Positions 4,338 to 58,927 of a stretch of DNA of 64,000 bases are shown here, piece by piece. The notes beneath the pieces are model-generated. The model was not told the origin of the DNA, searched no databases, and saw only the letters and a list, made by a program, of their open reading frames with translations. Source of the stretch: Faecalibacter sp. LW9 (GTDB taxonomy: Bacteria > Bacteroidota > Bacteroidia > Flavobacteriales > Weeksellaceae); the NCBI RefSeq assembly GCF_034661295.1, contig NZ_CP141062.1, positions 558,001 to 622,000 on the forward strand, in the 5' to 3' direction. How positions within the stretch are numbered: position 1 is the stretch's first letter; each line of letters opens with the position of its first letter. Made by a program: the position numbers and the translations under genes.

Positions 4338-4491
4338 GGGCGTTCCCTCGTCAACAAAATTATAATTAAATAATAAAAATTTCCTACGCTCGGTCGGGCT
4401 ATCCGTTGCAATCTTTTGTTTGGAGTATCATAGGTACCTAAAAACAAAATCCTTTGTCAAACAAAAGGATTTCCACTACTATCCCTAACGC
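4338..4491. repeat. Intergenic GCGTTAGGG...GGGAACGCCC element, copy 1 (long form)
   Basis: Read on the minus strand it starts GCGTTAGGGAT, contains GTGGAAATCCTTT, then ACAAAAGATTG, AGCCCGACCGAGC and ends GGGAACGCCC. The same ordered blocks occur at 20434-20507. This copy is longer because about 45 AT-rich bases lie between GAGC and GGGAACGCCC and the central stem is larger. The AAAGGATTTCCA and TTTGTTTGG parts allow stem-loops. Elements of this appearance are common between genes in Flavobacteriia; their function is unknown to me. Confidence 0.65.
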
Positions 4492-4526
4492 GTTTAGCGT
4501 TTAGCGTTTAGCGTTTAGCGTTTAGC
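4490..4526. repeat. Heptanucleotide tandem array (TTTAGCG)n
   Basis: About five uninterrupted copies of TTTAGCG directly abut the GCGTTAGGG end of the element at 4338-4491. The period is exactly seven. Confidence 0.9.
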
Positions 4527-20420: not shown

Positions 20421-20433
20421 AAAAATAAAAAAT

Positions 20434-20507
20434 GCGTTAGGGATTGAAGTGAAAATCCTTTGCGATAGCAAAGATTGAAACAAAAAGCCCGACCGAAGGG
20501 AACGCCC
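20434..20507. repeat. Intergenic GCGTTAGGG...GGGAACGCCC element, copy 2 (short form)
   Basis: Blocks in order: GCGTTAGGGAT, AGTGAAAATCCTTT, GCAAAGATTG, AAAGCCCGACCGAA, GGGAACGCCC. They match copy 1 (4338-4491, opposite strand) in order and sequence. The centre CCTTTGCGATAGCAAAG is a small hairpin. As in copy 1, a heptanucleotide array flanks the GCGTTAGGG side. Confidence 0.75.
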
Positions 20508-50727: not shown

Positions 50728-52280
50728 GAGGCTGTCTCAAAAGACAGTCTCTTTTTTTGTATTTTATCTGATGAATCTAATTTTGTAATTTAATAGTTCA
50801 AAATTGAATTAAATAAGCAAAAAATGTAAAAATGATGGTAAAATGAACTTTTTTCAGGTGATTTTCGCCATTTTCTTTAAGTTATGAGCAATAGCAAGTA
50901 AGCCGACTTCAATTTCGACTTTATCAACTCCTCTTAACATAAATCGTTTAAAGTTTTTGTTGTGTTTTATTTCGGCAAAAACTGGTTCAACATCGTGACA
51001 TCTTTGTTTTCTGAGTTTGATACCTTTCACTGTATTGAGAAGTTTATATGCTTTTTCTCTTATTTTAGCCAGTTTGGGATTGCTCTCTGAAGAAGTAATT
51101 TGTCCTGATTTTTGATCTTTTCTGAAGTAATTGTATTTTACGTAAGGTTTTATCTTTTTTGATTTAAGCAAGTTATAATTTTCTTCTGAGCCATAGCCCG
51201 CATCGGCTACAAGCTCTTTTGGAGTTCTATGGTAATGCTGCTCAAAACCTGCTAAATGAGGTTTTAGAGTTTTTGTATCGGTTGGATTATGGTGAATAGA
51301 ATAATGTAAAATATACTGTTTATTCGTGGAGATTTGCAGATTATAAGCGGGTTTTAGCTGACCATTTTTCATATGATCTTCTTTCATTCTCATAAATGTA
51401 GCATCTGTATCGGTCTTAGAGTAAGAATTTCTTTGTTGTAAAATCTCTTCTTGTTTTTTGTATTTTTCTAAATTCTTAGACCAATTTTTCTTTCCATAAT
51501 TGAGCTTTTGACGAATCTTTGATGGGATTTTTTTATCTTTCAAAACTTCATTTATCTTATCAATTGTTTGTGTGACTTTTTCAGAATCGATTTCTTTAAA
51601 TTCAATATTTTCTGTGTTTTGAAGCTCTTCTTTTGCTACACTTTCTGCGTAATTCCATAAGTCTTCTAACTGCTCAGAAATTCTAGCTTTGTGTTTTTTA
51701 ATCGCTCTTCCCCAAACGAATGTATAGCGATTAGCGCTTGCCTCAATCTTAGTCCCATCAACAAAAGTGGTTGTTAAACTAACGATTCCTTCTTTTTCTA
51801 AAAGCAAGACTATTTGAGTGAATATAGATTTCAGTTTACCTTTTAATCGCTCGCTACGAAAGCGATTTATCGTATTATGGTCAGGACGATTCATTCCAGA
51901 AAGCCACATAAAATGAATATTTTCTTTCAGTGCTTGTTCTAATTTACGGCTTGAATAAATATTACTTAGGTAGCCATAAATCAACACTTTCAGAAGCATT
52001 TTTGGGTGATAAGATGATGTTCCATATGGTTTATAGCTATTAATAAGATTTTTAATTGCTAAACCATCTATTATATTGGAAATAACTCTAACAGGATGCT
52101 TTTCTTCTATCAACTCCGATAAATTTGGAGGAAAAAGCAAATTTTCTTTGGGATTGTAATCTTTAAAGACTATTTTCGAACTAGTATACACACAGCAATT
52201 TAATAAAATTGCACCAATTGGGAAAGCTTAGGCTTTCCTTTTTTCTTAAAAAAAAGCTGTCTCACTTTTGAGACAGCCTC
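50728..52280 (-). mobile_element. IS1182-family insertion sequence, copy 2
   Basis: The 1553-bp element is the reverse complement of copies 1 and 3, with the same GAGGCTGTCTCAAAAG ends. It lies between two convergent genes: 8 bp after the GNAT stop and 22 bp before the metQ stop. Pre-insertion flanks AAAAA and TTCAATAG show no target duplication. Its transposase is identical to that of copy 3. Confidence 0.95.
50854..52191 (-). CDS. IS1182-family DDE transposase, copy 2
   Basis: The 445-residue protein is identical to the copy-3 transposase and carries Ser152 and Lys235. Catalytic Asp145, Asp330 and Glu402 are present. The start codon is GTG, preceded by two short hairpins inside the IS end. 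Confidence 0.95.
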   Translation of the reverse strand: MYTSSKIVFKDYNPKENLLFPPNLSELIEEKHPVRVISNIIDGLAIKNLINSYKPYGTSSYHPKMLLKVLIYGYLSNIYSSRKLEQALKENIHFMWLSGMNRPDHNTINRFRSERLKGKLKSIFTQIVLLLEKEGIVSLTTTFVDGTKIEASANRYTFVWGRAIKKHKARISEQLEDLWNYAESVAKEELQNTENIEFKEIDSEKVTQTIDKINEVLKDKKIPSKIRQKLNYGKKNWSKNLEKYKKQEEILQQRNSYSKTDTDATFMRMKEDHMKNGQLKPAYNLQISTNKQYILHYSIHHNPTDTKTLKPHLAGFEQHYHRTPKELVADAGYGSEENYNLLKSKKIKPYVKYNYFRKDQKSGQITSSESNPKLAKIREKAYKLLNTVKGIKLRKQRCHDVEPVFAEIKHNKNFKRFMLRGVDKVEIEVGLLAIAHNLKKMAKIT

Positions 52281-52302: not shown

Positions 52303-53115
52303 TTACCATCCTTTGATGGCTCCATCTTTAAAAATTTCTTTTGCTTTTTGTTCAACCGCTTCCGATTGGTATGCTTGTAAGAATTGCTTGATGCGAGGAT
52401 CGTTTTTGTTGTCTTCTCTGGAAACAACCAAATTCATATAAGGCGATTCTTTATCTTCTGTAAATACTCCATCTTTTGTCGCATCTAATCCCGCTTGTCC
52501 CGCGAAATTATTATTGATAACAGCAATGACAACTTTTTCGTCGTCTAAAACACGAGTTAATTGAGGTGCTTCCAATTCGATAATGTCTAATTGCTTAGGA
52601 TTAGCAACGATGTCTGTTAATTTGGGGAATAAACCAACACCTTCTTTTAATTGAATCAACCCTAATTTGTTTAATAAAATTAAGGAACGTCCACCGTTTG
52701 GCGCATCATTCGGAATGGCAATGGTGCTTCCATCTTTTAAATCATTTAACGATTTAATTTTCTTTGAATAACCGACGATTGGGTAAACGAACGTATTACC
52801 GATGGCTGCGAATTTATACCCACGTTTTTCTGATTGCGAATCGATGAAGGGTTGCGTTTGGTAAGCATTGGCATCAATATCCCCGTTATTTAACGCTTCA
52901 TTTGGTACGATATAATCGTTGAACGAAACTAATTCAACATCTAAATTGTACTTTTCTTTCGCCACTTTTTGCGCTGTTTCCGCTAACGCATATTCAGGGC
53001 CTGCCATTACACCTACTTTTAGTGCTCCTGTTCCATCATTCTTTTTTTCACCACAAGCAAAAATCGTTAAAAACGAAATTCCTGCTAAAACGGACTTTAT
53101 GATTGACTTTTTCAT
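52303..53115 (-). CDS. metQ: Methionine-binding lipoprotein MetQ
   Basis: The 270-residue NlpA-family substrate-binding protein has lipobox FLTIFAC (Cys21) followed by GEKKNDGTGALKVGVMAG. YQTQPFIDSQ near 85 and IAIPNDAPNGGRSLILL near 131 are characteristic of D/L-methionine-binding proteins. It is tethered outside the inner membrane and delivers methionine to MetI/MetN. It is the last gene of the operon, 11 bp after metI. Its stop is 22 bp from IS copy 2, whose hairpin now provides the downstream terminator. Confidence 0.93.
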   Translation of the reverse strand: MKKSIIKSVLAGISFLTIFACGEKKNDGTGALKVGVMAGPEYALAETAQKVAKEKYNLDVELVSFNDYIVPNEALNNGDIDANAYQTQPFIDSQSEKRGYKFAAIGNTFVYPIVGYSKKIKSLNDLKDGSTIAIPNDAPNGGRSLILLNKLGLIQLKEGVGLFPKLTDIVANPKQLDIIELEAPQLTRVLDDEKVVIAVINNNFAGQAGLDATKDGVFTEDKESPYMNLVVSREDNKNDPRIKQFLQAYQSEAVEQKAKEIFKDGAIKGW

Positions 53116-53126
53116 TCGATATATTT

Positions 53127-53780
53127 TTATTTATGATTGAATTTTTTTGATAAGAAATCACCCGTAAATTGGATGATAAAAACGATAATGATTAATAAAA
53201 CTAAAACCACATTCATGATTAAAGTATCATAACCAACATATCCATATTGATAACCGATTTGTCCTAAACCTCCAGCACCAACTGCGCCACCCATGGCAGA
53301 ATAACCCACCAAAGTAATTAAGGTAATGGTCGCTGCATTGATCAAAGAAGGTAAAGCTTCTGGTAATAGTACTTTCATAATAATTTGCATGGGTTTAGCG
53401 CCCATTGCGCGAGCCGCTTCAATTAAGCCTTCCGGAATTTCCAATAAACTATTTTCAACTAATCGAGCAATAAATGGAGCTGCTCCTACACTTAAAGGAA
53501 CTAATGCCGCAGCCATTCCGATAGATGAGCCGACGATTGCACGTGTAAAGGGAATCATCCAAACAATTAAGATGATAAATGGAATCGAACGGAACACATT
53601 TACGAAAAAGGATAAGGTTTGATTCACGATTTTATGTTCTAAGAATTGTCCTTTGCGCGTTAAAAACAAAATAATTCCTAAAGGTAATCCGATGACGAAA
53701 CCGAAAAATCCAGCGACAAATGTCATCACAATCGTTTCCCACGTTCCTTTCACTAAAATATTAATGATTGATTCTGACAT
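53127..53780 (-). CDS. metI: Methionine ABC transporter permease MetI
   Basis: The 217-residue protein has five predicted membrane helices. The cytoplasmic EAA coupling loop reads EAARAMGAKPMQIIMKVLLP near 139-158, which contacts the MetN ATPase. GTWETIVMTFVAGF near 12 and GYSAMGGAVGAGGLG near 183 are family signatures. It overlaps the metN 3' end by 20 bp, so translation is coupled. It is the membrane channel of the methionine importer. Confidence 0.94.
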   Translation of the reverse strand: MSESIINILVKGTWETIVMTFVAGFFGFVIGLPLGIILFLTRKGQFLEHKIVNQTLSFFVNVFRSIPFIILIVWMIPFTRAIVGSSIGMAAALVPLSVGAAPFIARLVENSLLEIPEGLIEAARAMGAKPMQIIMKVLLPEALPSLINAATITLITLVGYSAMGGAVGAGGLGQIGYQYGYVGYDTLIMNVVLVLLIIIVFIIQFTGDFLSKKFNHK

Positions 53781-54804
53781 AGCCTATTTTTTCGATGTTA
53801 AACTGATTGTTTTTGAAATAGTTTTCGATGGTTGCTTCTTGGTTGTTGATTTGATCAATTTTAATGAACATCGTTCCGTAATTAATACTTCCAGCATATT
53901 CGATACGAGAAGTAATGACTTCGGGCGTGAACTGAAATTGATTTTTAATTTCAGCAATTGTCGAATTATAATTCGGTTGGTTGCTAAAACTAATTTTATA
54001 AATCACCGCTGAATCAGCTGTTGCATCATTTTCAAGTTTTGATTTAAAAACAGAAGGCAATTCAATATCCAATGATTTTTTGATGAAATCGTGGGTGATT
54101 TGTTCTTTTGGATTCGTGAAAATGGTTTCAACTGATCCGTGTTCTACTACTTTTCCATTCTTCATCACCGCAACCTCATCACAGATGGCGTTGATTACTT
54201 CCATTTCGTGAGTAATTAATACAATCGTAATATTTAAACGTTGATTGATTTCTTTCAATAAGTTTAAAATTGATTTCGTTGTGGATGGGTCCAACGCACT
54301 TGTTGCTTCATCACACAATAAAACAGATGGATTACTAGCCAAAGCACGAGCAATGGCTACCCGTTGTTTTTGACCTCCCGATAAGTTTGCAGGGTATTCG
54401 TTGGCTTTATCTAAAATTCCAACTAATTCCAACAACTCATTTACTTTGGATTTTATTTCACTTTTCGAAGCGCCAGTTAATTCTAACGGAAAAGCCACAT
54501 TCTGAAAAATCGTACGAGAAGATAATAGATTGAAATGTTGAAAGATCATTCCAATTTTTCTTCGTTCTAATGTTAATTTCGCTTGCGCTAAAGAAGTTAA
54601 ATCAACACCATTTACCCAAACTTCTCCTGAATCAGGCGTTTCTAACAAATTGATGCAACGAATCAAGGTGCTTTTCCCAGCACCAGATTGTCCAATGACA
54701 CCAAAAATTTTTCCTTCATCTATGGTTAATGAAACATCATCCAAAGCCGTAATGGTTTGGGTTGAAGTTGTAAATTTTTTATTAATATTTTTTAATTCAA
54801 TCAT
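53761..54804 (-). CDS. metN: Methionine ABC transporter ATP-binding protein MetN
   Basis: The 347-residue ATPase starts at MIELKNINKKF (ATG 54802-54804). An in-frame start nine codons upstream would reach into the terminator hairpin and is less likely. Walker A is GQSGAGKST (near 37), the signature LSGGQKQ (near 139), Walker B VLLCDEATSALDP (near 158) and the switch His in THEM. The C-terminal 100 residues form the NIL/ACT domain that binds methionine and inhibits transport in homologues. It is the first gene of metNIQ, preceded by a probable attenuator. Confidence 0.94.
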   Translation of the reverse strand: MIELKNINKKFTTSTQTITALDDVSLTIDEGKIFGVIGQSGAGKSTLIRCINLLETPDSGEVWVNGVDLTSLAQAKLTLERRKIGMIFQHFNLLSSRTIFQNVAFPLELTGASKSEIKSKVNELLELVGILDKANEYPANLSGGQKQRVAIARALASNPSVLLCDEATSALDPSTTKSILNLLKEINQRLNITIVLITHEMEVINAICDEVAVMKNGKVVEHGSVETIFTNPKEQITHDFIKKSLDIELPSVFKSKLENDATADSAVIYKISFSNQPNYNSTIAEIKNQFQFTPEVITSRIEYAGSINYGTMFIKIDQINNQEATIENYFKNNQFNIEKIGYVRINH

Positions 54805-54817
54805 TTGATTAATACGA

Positions 54818-54852
54818 AAAAAGCCCCTCAAATCAAATCGAATGAGAGGCTA
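54818..54852 (-). terminator. Leader terminator directly upstream of metN
   Basis: On the minus strand AGCCTCTCA, a 12-base loop and TGAGGGGCT (one GU pair) are followed by TTTTTT, ending 14 bp before the metN ATG. It lies inside the transcribed leader rather than after a gene, so it fits a regulated attenuator. Confidence 0.8.
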
Positions 54853-54889
54853 GATTATAGGATTTTATGCAAAGAACCACATCATTCAG

Positions 54890-54928
54890 TCAGACAAGAG
54901 AATGCATGCCGTTACAATTCATGACCAT
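54890..54928 (-). CDS. Putative Met-rich leader peptide of metNIQ (12 residues)
   Basis: ATG at 54926-54928 opens MVMNCNGMHSLV followed by TGA. Three of 12 residues are methionine. It lies about 30 nt after the predicted transcription start and about 40 nt before the terminator hairpin. This is the layout of translation-coupled attenuation controlled by charged tRNA-Met or methionine. The stretch is short, so chance occurrence remains possible. Confidence 0.5.
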   Translation of the reverse strand: MVMNCNGMHSLV

Positions 54929-54966
54929 ATTTTCTTTATTTGTTTTCAGTTAAATTATTTACATTG

Positions 54967-54996
54967 CAAAATTAGCTTTAAAGCTTTTAAAACAAA
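54967..54996 (-). promoter_or_regulatory. Promoter of metNIQ
   Basis: On the minus strand TTTG (54993-54996), an 18-bp spacer and TAATTTTG (54967-54974) match TTTG/TAnnTTTG fully. It gives a leader of about 155 nt before metN. The remaining gap to 55379 is AT-rich with no recognisable gene. Confidence 0.7.
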
Positions 54997-55350
54997 AAAA
55001 TATTAGGTAAAAACGAATCTGTTAATCTTTTTAAAGAATTATTTTCTGTATAAATAAAGATTTAAGATGTTTTTTTAATAGAACTTCAGTTTTATAATAA
55101 ATTATTTATTCTTCTTTAACGTTTGATTAAATAAATTCCATACGTCTATCTATTGTTGAATATTTATTCAAGTATCATATTGTTTCATGTTAAAATATTA
55201 TCTTTTTTCGATTAGGTTAAGGGGTTTAAATCATTGAAATATAGCTTTTTATTTTTTGTAAATTCAGAATATACAAGTTTTAAATGGACATGCTTTTTAA
55301 TTTCATGCATTTAAAAACAGATGATTTTTTTTAACGGTATAAGGATCATT

Positions 55351-55379: not shown

Positions 55380-57341
55380 ATGTTGATGAAATCTACTTTA
55401 AAAACATCTATTGCTTGTTTCTTATTCTCTACAAGTTTATTCGGACAGTCAATAGAATTCAGAGCCTTTGATGTGGCTTCAAGTGTCGTACGAGGTATAT
55501 TAAACAATGGAGATGCTCTAATGGTAGGTTATACCTACAACTACGAAACAAATGTGCTGACTCCAAAAGACAATGGAGTTACTACCCAGGCTCATATGAA
55601 TGCAAATGGGGATAAGGTAGGAACAATTACGATTGATGGAATTGTTCATCCCGCGTATAAATTAGCGAATGCGACTGAATGGGTCGTAGTTCCTGTTTTT
55701 GATAACTTTGAATTGGGTGACAATACAACGGTATATTCTATCAGTAACAATGGTCGATACATTGTAGGTCAAATGAAAACGGTACCATTCATATATGATA
55801 TACAAAATCAAGAATTAACCAATTTACTTCCTGAAGGGTATATGTACGGTGCAGGGTATAGTGTAAATAACGATGGAACAGCCGTGGGATGGATTGATGC
55901 TGCAATTAATGGAACATTCCGCGAGTTAGGAGTGATGCAGAAAGATCAACCGTTACGCAAATTATTAACGGATATTGTGATGCCTGTAAATAACCATATT
56001 TGGCATGTAGACGATAATGGATTTGTGGTAGGGGAAGTAGGATTAAAACCATTCAGTTATAACTTAAATACCAACGAATACCGTATTTATGATTTACCCG
56101 CGGGCTATCGTACAGGTTCTTTTCAATCGTCATCGAATGGAATTATCGTTGGCTATGCACAAAATATGGTAATGGATCGTGATGCCATTATTTATCATGA
56201 ATCTTTTGGGAATCAACCAAAATTAATTAAAGATTTATTAATCGAACAAGGAATCGAAATTACAATTCCTGGAGGGAAATTGGGCTGAGCAAATGCAATT
56301 TCTGAAAATGGACAGTTTATTGGAGGAAATGAAGTTGGAAATGGAAATATTGCACCAGGATGGATTTTAAACTTAAACAGTTATTTTGAATCAAATGGGT
56401 GTCATATTCAAGTTCCTTCGGATATTGAAGTTCAAATTAATTTAGGAGAAACTTCTGTAATTGTTAATTATGAAGTAACCACTGATTGTGCCGATACACA
56501 ATTGGTCATGGTAAGTGGAATTGCATCTGGCGAAACATTTCCAATTGGAATGACGACAATAGCATATAATGCTGTAGACCAAGAAGGGAATGTAGTAGGT
56601 TCTGCATCATTTAAAGTGAATGTAAAAGATTCGTACTGTACTCCTCGTTTTGCTGCAATCGTTGAACCAATTACGAAAGTAGAATTTGGAAGCATACAAG
56701 ACAATACCACTTCGTATGTGACAGCATCTGAAAATGAATATTTCTTAGAACAATCAACGGATGTAATTAAAGGGGAAACTTATACGATTACTGTTGCTGG
56801 TAATATAAATGGGATAGCTGAGACAAGTCAATTCGTGGTATTCTTCGATTTTGATCAAGATGGAATATTTAATCCAGATACTGAAGGATATTATATTGGT
56901 TCAATCACAGGTTCAACAGGTGTAGATGGACAAACCGTATCAAACCAAATTACTATTCCAACGGATATTTTAACAGGACCGACTCGTATGCGTGTAATGA
57001 AAACGTATCGCTTAGTTCCAGAGAATCCATGTTCATTGACTTATGCGTATGGTCAAAGTGAAGATTATACGATAAATGTTGTGGAAAATTTAGGTACAAA
57101 TGATATTGCCAATCAATCGATTAAAGTATATCCAAATCCAGTTAAAGATGTAGTAAATCTTCAAACTTCTAAAGAAGTTAACACAATTGCCATCTACAAT
57201 TTAGCAGGACAAAAAATCATATCAAAAGAAGTTAATATAATCAATCCATCATTAAATGTTTCATCATTACCAAAAGGTGTTTACATTTTAAAGGTGGAAA
57301 CAAATGAAGGATCAATTTCTCATAAAATCATTAAGGAGTAG
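55380..57341 (+). pseudogene. Secreted T9SS cargo protein (HAF-like repeats, HYR, GEVED, sorting domain) with an internal TGA
   Basis: One frame of 654 codons spans the locus, broken only by TGA at 56286-56288. Before it come a signal peptide (ending near SLFGQ, 23) and propeller-like repeats such as NNDGTAVGWID and SSNGIIVGYAQN. After it the repeat pattern continues ANAISENGQFIGG. A HYR-like segment (FPIGMTTIAYNAVDQEGNVV), a GEVED domain (FFDFDQDGIFNPDTEGYY, YGQSEDYTINV) and a type IX sorting domain (VYPNPVKDVVNL to KIIKE) follow. The TGA sits where a Trp (TGG) fits, in GGKLG-x-ANAIS. Without readthrough the export signal is lost. It may be a recent pseudogene or a sequencing error. Confidence 0.8.
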
Positions 57342-57373: not shown

Positions 57374-58927
57374 GCGGCTGTCTCAAAAGTGAGACAGCTT
57401 TTTTTTAAGAAAAAAGGAAAGCCTAAGCTTTCCCAATTGGTGCAATTTTATTAAATTGCTGTGTGTATACTAGTTCGAAAATAGTCTTTAAAGATTACAA
57501 TCCCAAAGAAAATTTGCTTTTTCCTCCAAATTTATCGGAGTTGATAGAAGAAAAGCATCCTGTTAGAGTTATTTCCAATATAATAGATGGTTTAGCAATT
57601 AAAAATCTTATTAATAGCTATAAACCATATGGAACATCATCTTATCACCCAAAAATGCTTCTGAAAGTGTTGATTTATGGCTACCTAAGTAATATTTATT
57701 CAAGCCGTAAATTAGAACAAGCACTGAAAGAAAATATTCATTTTATGTGGCTTTCTGGAATGAATCGTCCTGACCATAATACGATAAATCGCTTTCGTAG
57801 CGAGCGATTAAAAGGTAAACTGAAATCTATATTCACTCAAATAGTCTTGCTTTTAGAAAAAGAAGGAATCGTTAGTTTAACAACCACTTTTGTTGATGGG
57901 ACTAAGATTGAGGCAAGCGCTAATCGCTATACATTCGTTTGGGGAAGAGCGATTAAAAAACACAAAGCTAGAATTTCTGAGCAGTTAGAAGACTTATGGA
58001 ATTACGCAGAAAGTGTAGCAAAAGAAGAGCTTCAAAACACAGAAAATATTGAATTTAAAGAAATCGATTCTGAAAAAGTCACACAAACAATTGATAAGAT
58101 AAATGAAGTTTTGAAAGATAAAAAAATCCCATCAAAGATTCGTCAAAAGCTCAATTATGGAAAGAAAAATTGGTCTAAGAATTTAGAAAAATACAAAAAA
58201 CAAGAAGAGATTTTACAACAAAGAAATTCTTACTCTAAGACCGATACAGATGCTACATTTATGAGAATGAAAGAAGATCATATGAAAAATGGTCAGCTAA
58301 AACCCGCTTATAATCTGCAAATCTCCACGAATAAACAGTATATTTTACATTATTCTATTCACCATAATCCAACCGATACAAAAACTCTAAAACCTCATTT
58401 AGCAGGTTTTGAGCAGCATTACCATAGAACTCCAAAAGAGCTTGTAGCCGATGCGGGCTATGGCTCAGAAGAAAATTATAACTTGCTTAAATCAAAAAAG
58501 ATAAAACCTTACGTAAAATACAATTACTTCAGAAAAGATCAAAAATCAGGACAAATTACTTCTTCAGAGAGCAATCCCAAACTGGCTAAAATAAGAGAAA
58601 AAGCATATAAACTTCTCAATACAGTGAAAGGTATCAAACTCAGAAAACAAAGATGTCACGATGTTGAACCAGTTTTTGCCGAAATAAAACACAACAAAAA
58701 CTTTAAACGATTTATGTTAAGAGGAGTTGATAAAGTCGAAATTGAAGTCGGCTTACTTGCTATTGCTCATAACTTAAAGAAAATGGCGAAAATCACCTGA
58801 AAAAAGTTCATTTTACCATCATTTTTACATTTTTTGCTTATTTAATTCAATTTTGAACTATTAAATTACAAAATTAGATTCATCAGATAAAATACAAAAA
58901 AAAGAGACTGTCTTTTGAGACAGCCTC
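57374..58927 (+). mobile_element. IS1182-family insertion sequence, copy 3
   Basis: The 1554-bp element has ends GCGGCTGTCTCAAAAG and CTTTTGAGACAGCCTC; position 2 is C where the other copies have A. It lies 32 bp past the T9SS gene's stop. Flanks AACAAAAAA and TTTTTTATG together look like a split terminator. It is inverted relative to copy 2, 5.1 kb away, and its transposase is identical to copy 2. Confidence 0.95.
57463..58800 (+). CDS. IS1182-family DDE transposase, copy 3
   Basis: The 445-residue protein is identical to the copy-2 transposase (Ser152, Lys235). The DUF772-like N-terminus and catalytic Asp145, Asp330, Glu402 are intact. It starts at GTG. Recent transposition within this chromosome is likely, given the identity of the two copies. 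Confidence 0.95.
   Translation: MYTSSKIVFKDYNPKENLLFPPNLSELIEEKHPVRVISNIIDGLAIKNLINSYKPYGTSSYHPKMLLKVLIYGYLSNIYSSRKLEQALKENIHFMWLSGMNRPDHNTINRFRSERLKGKLKSIFTQIVLLLEKEGIVSLTTTFVDGTKIEASANRYTFVWGRAIKKHKARISEQLEDLWNYAESVAKEELQNTENIEFKEIDSEKVTQTIDKINEVLKDKKIPSKIRQKLNYGKKNWSKNLEKYKKQEEILQQRNSYSKTDTDATFMRMKEDHMKNGQLKPAYNLQISTNKQYILHYSIHHNPTDTKTLKPHLAGFEQHYHRTPKELVADAGYGSEENYNLLKSKKIKPYVKYNYFRKDQKSGQITSSESNPKLAKIREKAYKLLNTVKGIKLRKQRCHDVEPVFAEIKHNKNFKRFMLRGVDKVEIEVGLLAIAHNLKKMAKIT

Follow-up and report, generated by a model that had tools for sequence, protein, structure and literature searches.

The usual sensors of methionine supply are SAM riboswitches, T-boxes and MetJ-type repressors. The metNIQ methionine transporter operon of Faecalibacter sp. 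LW9 raises the question of whether its transcription might be governed by a ribosome translating a short leader ORF that holds Met and Cys codons. The operon was examined within a 64,000-nt stretch of contig NZ_CP141062.1 (positions 558,001 to 622,000), referred to here as the window. The features of the locus, in the direction of transcription, are the following.

54967..54996 (-): promoter, with the -7 box TAATTTTG at 54974-54967 matching TAnnTTTG
54890..54928 (-): leader ORF MVMNCNGMHSLV, 12 codons, with Met at codons 1, 3 and 8 and Cys at codon 5
54900..54905 (-): segment 1, GCATTC, inside the ORF, able to pair with segment 2
54874..54889 (-): segment 2, CTGAATGATGTGGTTC, immediately 3' of the stop codon; 5' strand of the putative antiterminator, pairing with the terminator 5' arm
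54838..54852 (-): segment 3, TAGCCTCTCATTCGA, common to the putative antiterminator (2:3) and the terminator (3:4)
54816..54851 (-): intrinsic terminator hairpin and T tract (stem 54851-54822 plus T6)
53761..54804 (-): metN, ABC transporter ATPase, ATG at 54804, first gene of the controlled operon
53127..53780 (-): metI, permease, assigned by metNIQ gene order and its own sequence
52303..53115 (-): metQ, substrate-binding lipoprotein, assigned likewise

The leader ORF and its RNA structure

The original prediction of a promoter, a 12-codon ORF and a strong terminator ahead of metN was borne out in every position. TAnnTTTG is the Flavobacteriia sigma A consensus (PMC9723704). The ORF has the nucleotide sequence ATGGTCATGAATTGTAACGGCATGCATTCTCTTGTCTGA, stop codon included, and an in-frame CTG at 54949 would lengthen the peptide to LKTNKENMVMNCNGMHSLV. 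Three Met and one Cys among 12 codons stand between the promoter and the terminator of metNIQ. However, 10% of dinucleotide-shuffled window leaders contain some ORF with two or more internal Met and one or more Cys, and for this reason the ORF of the window taken alone proves little.

The terminator hairpin has a folding energy of -14.2 kcal/mol (z -3.57), with 0 of 200 shuffles as good, and both its position and its CCTYTCAT arm are common to relatives. A competing hairpin had been proposed between GCATTC and GAATGATG; both segments are present, but at -6.9 kcal/mol (z -0.63) the 1:2 pairing is at chance level against shuffles. Better than chance is a pairing that was absent from that proposal, between the segment following the ORF and the terminator 5' arm. 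This 2:3 duplex reaches -11.5 kcal/mol (p 0.0245) and beats 97.5% of shuffles, compared with only about -5 kcal/mol for the comparable segment in two ORF-less congeners (G044 and G125). The window leader is one sequence, and compensatory changes are seen only in the Chryseobacterium alignment described below. By our own arithmetic with a standard ribosome footprint, the spacing fits attenuation, as a ribosome whose A site holds Met 8 would end before segment 2 and a ribosome at the stop codon would cover the first half of it. With a stall at Cys 5, part of segment 1 would be free, which suggests Met 8 as the likelier control codon.

A second tiny ORF, MMWFFA (54865-54885, minus strand), starts 4 bases past the stop codon of the leader ORF and partly coincides with segment 2; ribosomes re-initiating on it would get in the way of the antiterminator. 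At a larger scale, metNIQ and a neighbouring gene are flanked by inverted, identical 445-aa transposase genes of the IS1182 family (50854-52191 on the minus strand and 57463-58800 on the plus strand). The stretch between the two copies, metNIQ together with the gene at 55380-57341, is inverted relative to G044, as recombination between the copies would give. That gene, divergent from metN on the plus strand, consists of two ORFs (302 and 279 aa) and looks broken in the window, since its G044 counterpart is a single 653-aa ORF. Also present in the window are two RNAs of the Flavo-1 motif, which has no known function, at 4388-4499 (minus strand) and 20431-20498 (plus strand).

Met/Cys leader peptides in related genomes

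A homologous leader with the core MMxxCMP, together with a terminator and an antiterminator, was found in all 19 of the sampled Chryseobacterium genomes that bear metN, where it sits upstream of metN or of eamA-metN. The Chryseobacterium peptides (MKSVFKYNSMKKHTINTMMMYCCMPRLQYCCG and similar) are rich in Met and Cys. The same layout of leader ORF, terminator and then metN or eamA-metN is found in Flavobacterium (peptides MRKKNQNRSYCNSNMMMCCGPVMRLIDLAYL and MKKKFQNTNYCSSNMAMCCMTAMQWFELAYI), g23 (MDRIIIRKSNCKSKKVTMIMCYQMAMPFSIVSGD), g10 (MKIPQKHWALDKQIINYKMIMCCHIHLSHCCCN) and g9, the leaders of the last having mainly Cys and few or no internal Met (MLKFVCCIRFI or MSGKMFCCYDLTFRIYMKK). It is shared by g26 as well; leaders of a similar kind are present in Flavobacterium and in several genera of the Weeksellaceae. 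No such leader was found upstream of the metN genes of Apibacter, and a class-wide peptide search returned nothing credible beyond the Flavobacteriales.

Searches with the DNA pattern ATGATGNANTGYTGYATGCC gave one match each in 51 of 148 Chryseobacterium genomes and 0 with the reversed control pattern, and each of the 30 pattern loci that were read (30/30) is upstream of metN or eamA. Codon conservation within the pattern is partly circular, as the pattern chose the sequences, and the core is looser in genomes that were not selected by it (MMKDICMPVHQEYCG, MMMCICMPIHQEYCG). Within the core of the leader family Cys is invariant, being conserved as strongly as Met. A covariance model built from 35 sequences (R1) matches all 19 metN-bearing Chryseobacterium genomes of the family sample at E<=1.7e-24, as well as the sole g26 genome of the sample that has metN, and does not match the single sampled Chryseobacterium genome without metN.

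The end of the Chryseobacterium ORF, stop codon included (GTGGTTGACCTT), is complementary to the terminator 5' arm (AAAGGCTTTACCAC). Over 35 sequences, 91.9% of the cells of this antiterminator are paired, against 37-54% when the partner is slid, and the terminator is 99.5% paired. Two antiterminator pairs change on both sides in four sequences, with CGGAGT/ACTCC replacing GTGG/CCAC. This amounts to 8 double-change cells compared with 1.0 in shuffles (0 of 500 shuffles as high), although the independent compensatory events are few because the four sequences are close relatives. Judged by duplex energy, the same layout is also evident in g23 (p 0.003), in a Flavobacterium leader (L041, p 0.014), in Chryseobacterium L093 (p 0.014) and in the first leader of G096 (0 of 2000 shuffles); it is weaker in other leaders, g9 included.

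Two genomes carry the leaders in tandem. In G126 (L188) two leaders, MNSNFIKYSNINKTSKMMSYCKCMSSDVGCIG and MQTEVKNKTMKNSKDMNKMMMCYRMKMQRCCRI, and two terminators precede eamA-metN, while in G096 (L197) the leaders MNTLIQYNNTQKTSMMVCCVCMQSRNCCIG and MKSKINNITAKICCMEKTIPIFCV, each with its own terminator, precede a cysteine-synthase-like gene. Under attenuation, Cys codons would be expected in the leader of a cysteine gene, and the G096 arrangement agrees with this. A search with the G096 cysteine-synthase fragment found no other copy in the family at E<=1e-20. The gene following it in G096 encodes a JAMM-like protein. Taken at the level of the family, a Met/Cys attenuator system is well supported by these comparisons. 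We are evenly divided on the broader proposal, a Flavobacteriales family of sulphur-amino-acid attenuators whose peptides would combine the reading of Met and Cys codons, with tandem leaders in some cases, and would control metNIQ and in one genome cysteine synthase.

The palindrome GTCTA-N9-TRGAC, which probably serves some regulator as an operator, was seen 5' of the -7 box in each of 30 Chryseobacterium metN leaders (30/30; L139-L168), and it also precedes the metN genes of a Pedobacter and of G125 (L044, L276). The window does not contain it, having AGCTTTAAAGCT in the promoter spacer.

Scored with a leader profile from which it had been left out, the leader ORF comes 7th among the 726 short ORFs of the window, at 5.1 bits, or 7.3 when read from the in-frame CTG. 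Its MVM-NCNGMH resembles the MMMCNCMPMH of two Chryseobacterium leaders. R1 does not match the window leader (54804-54996), nor was the leader reported when the peptide profile was searched genome-wide. Its membership in the family is likely, on the grounds of resemblance and geometry. Looking for further copies of the peptide in the same genome yielded nothing beyond weak profile matches and DNA-pattern matches that carry 2 mismatches; one weak match that was inspected, L228, is not a leader of the Met/Cys kind. Other weak R1 or profile matches (L189, L190, L191, L195, L223, L224 and L279-L281) look like ordinary terminators, coding sequence or chance, as do those in G511, G294 and G316 (L245, L248, L249).

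Orthologues of MetN were identified as high-scoring matches in 54 of 148 sampled family genomes; of the 14 species in the genus to which the window belongs, 4 have one. The closest of these relatives is G044, whose MetN is 92% identical. A comparison of metN leaders, put forward with the original prediction, gave a divided result. The ORF and its control codons are kept in Chryseobacterium, Flavobacterium, g23, g10 and g26, but the three congeners that also bear metN (G044, G125 and G092) lack the ORF and keep a terminator-like hairpin.

Proposed mechanism and alternative explanations

The reading that we favour, with some confidence, is that transcription of metNIQ in the window is attenuated by a ribosome-mediated mechanism, related to but diverged from a Flavobacteriales Met/Cys leader-peptide system. 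When charged tRNA is plentiful, the ribosome would reach the stop codon and cover segment 2, which starts at the stop; segment 3 would then pair with segment 4, and transcription would end before metN. When charged tRNA is scarce, the ribosome would stall at the last Met codon (codon 8, or perhaps Cys 5) and leave segment 2 free to pair with segment 3 as an antiterminator, so that metNIQ is transcribed. We infer that the window ORF is translated, that ribosomes stall on it and that it responds to Met and/or Cys. As a counterpoint, Met starvation would presumably also slow initiation at the leader ORF itself.

Control of metN by SAM or another known riboswitch could be suspected in a genome that carries three SAM-I riboswitches at other sites. 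It is very improbable, as no Rfam family reaches its curated gathering threshold at the window leader, and no SAM family was found in 54700-55150 even at E<=10; the expectation that no SAM riboswitch would be found in the metN leader held at this permissive setting. Two of the three SAM-I riboswitches are arranged divergently, ahead of a metH-like gene and of a gene for a MetB/MetY-like PLP enzyme, both named by eye. The organism uses SAM riboswitches, but not at metNIQ. The third (L274, G000:C1:1279416-1279517) precedes a 636-aa outer-membrane-receptor-like gene, also named by eye, whose product might be an uptake receptor regulated by SAM.

A stronger competitor takes the terminator as real and the ORF as incidental. 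By this account metNIQ would be attenuated or damped by some RNA or protein not yet described, or else the terminator would simply limit readthrough, and an ancestral leader peptide would be lost or decaying in the genus. Within the genus, all four species with metN retain the hairpin and just one retains the ORF, which speaks in its favour, as do the ease with which shuffled leaders attain the composition of the ORF and the failure of R1 to match in the window. We nevertheless consider it rather unlikely, since the pairing and the peptide resemblance would each arise by chance only about 1-2.5% of the time, the geometry relative to the stop codon fits attenuation, and no other conserved structure was seen. 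If the attenuator is accepted, the identity of the signal is a separate matter. Sensing of cysteine, or of both sulphur amino acids, rather than methionine would be a sub-case of the attenuator and does not exclude it. The invariant Cys of the family core, the Cys-dominated g9 leaders and the position of the G096 leaders before a cysteine synthase gene all point toward it. For the window it seems doubtful, as the ORF has one Cys against three Met, the control codon nearest to segment 2 encodes Met, and the controlled operon is a methionine transporter. Of the claim that Met codons attenuate metNIQ, the part that concerns leader-peptide attenuation is supported by homologous, conserved systems in relatives, while sensing of Met alone is not, the family codons being both Met and Cys.

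Relation to known attenuators

The classical attenuators of Proteobacteria (trp, his, leu, thr, phe, ilv) share with this leader a short ORF with control codons, one strand common to antiterminator and terminator, and a finished ribosome at the stop codon that blocks the antiterminator. They differ from it in that here the control codons are Met and Cys, the operon encodes a transporter and the organisms belong to the Bacteroidota. Among the open-access papers searched, none describes an attenuator whose control codons are Met, or any attenuator of metNIQ. For bacilli, a His leader is described in a survey of premature terminators (PMC2965389). The Actinobacteria have cysteine leader peptides that likewise place a Cys-codon ORF before sulphur amino acid genes, yet no terminator hairpin was found there and their mode is unknown (PMC1262725), whereas here a terminator and antiterminator are present, covarying in Chryseobacterium, and Met codons are mixed in. 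Within the same bacterial class, leader-peptide attenuation has been proposed upstream of operons in Flavobacterium psychrophilum; that proposal is stated for amino-acid biosynthesis operons, and the word "methionine" is absent from the main text of the article (PMC9723704). The attenuator is ordinary in kind, and it is apparently the choice of codons and the place that are new.

If the broader proposal of a Flavobacteriales attenuator family is true, it would supply the first ribosome-mediated attenuator known to us that uses Met as a control codon, and would do so in cells that leave their remaining Met genes to SAM riboswitches. A Met/Cys switch that reads codons would, in Bacteroidota, add to the known set of attenuators and would separate the sensing of charged tRNA from the sensing of SAM within one cell. 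It would also pose a testable paradox, in that a leader needing Met for its initiation would have to report Met starvation. The Chryseobacterium leader would in that case be a conserved natural reporter of Met/Cys tRNA charging.
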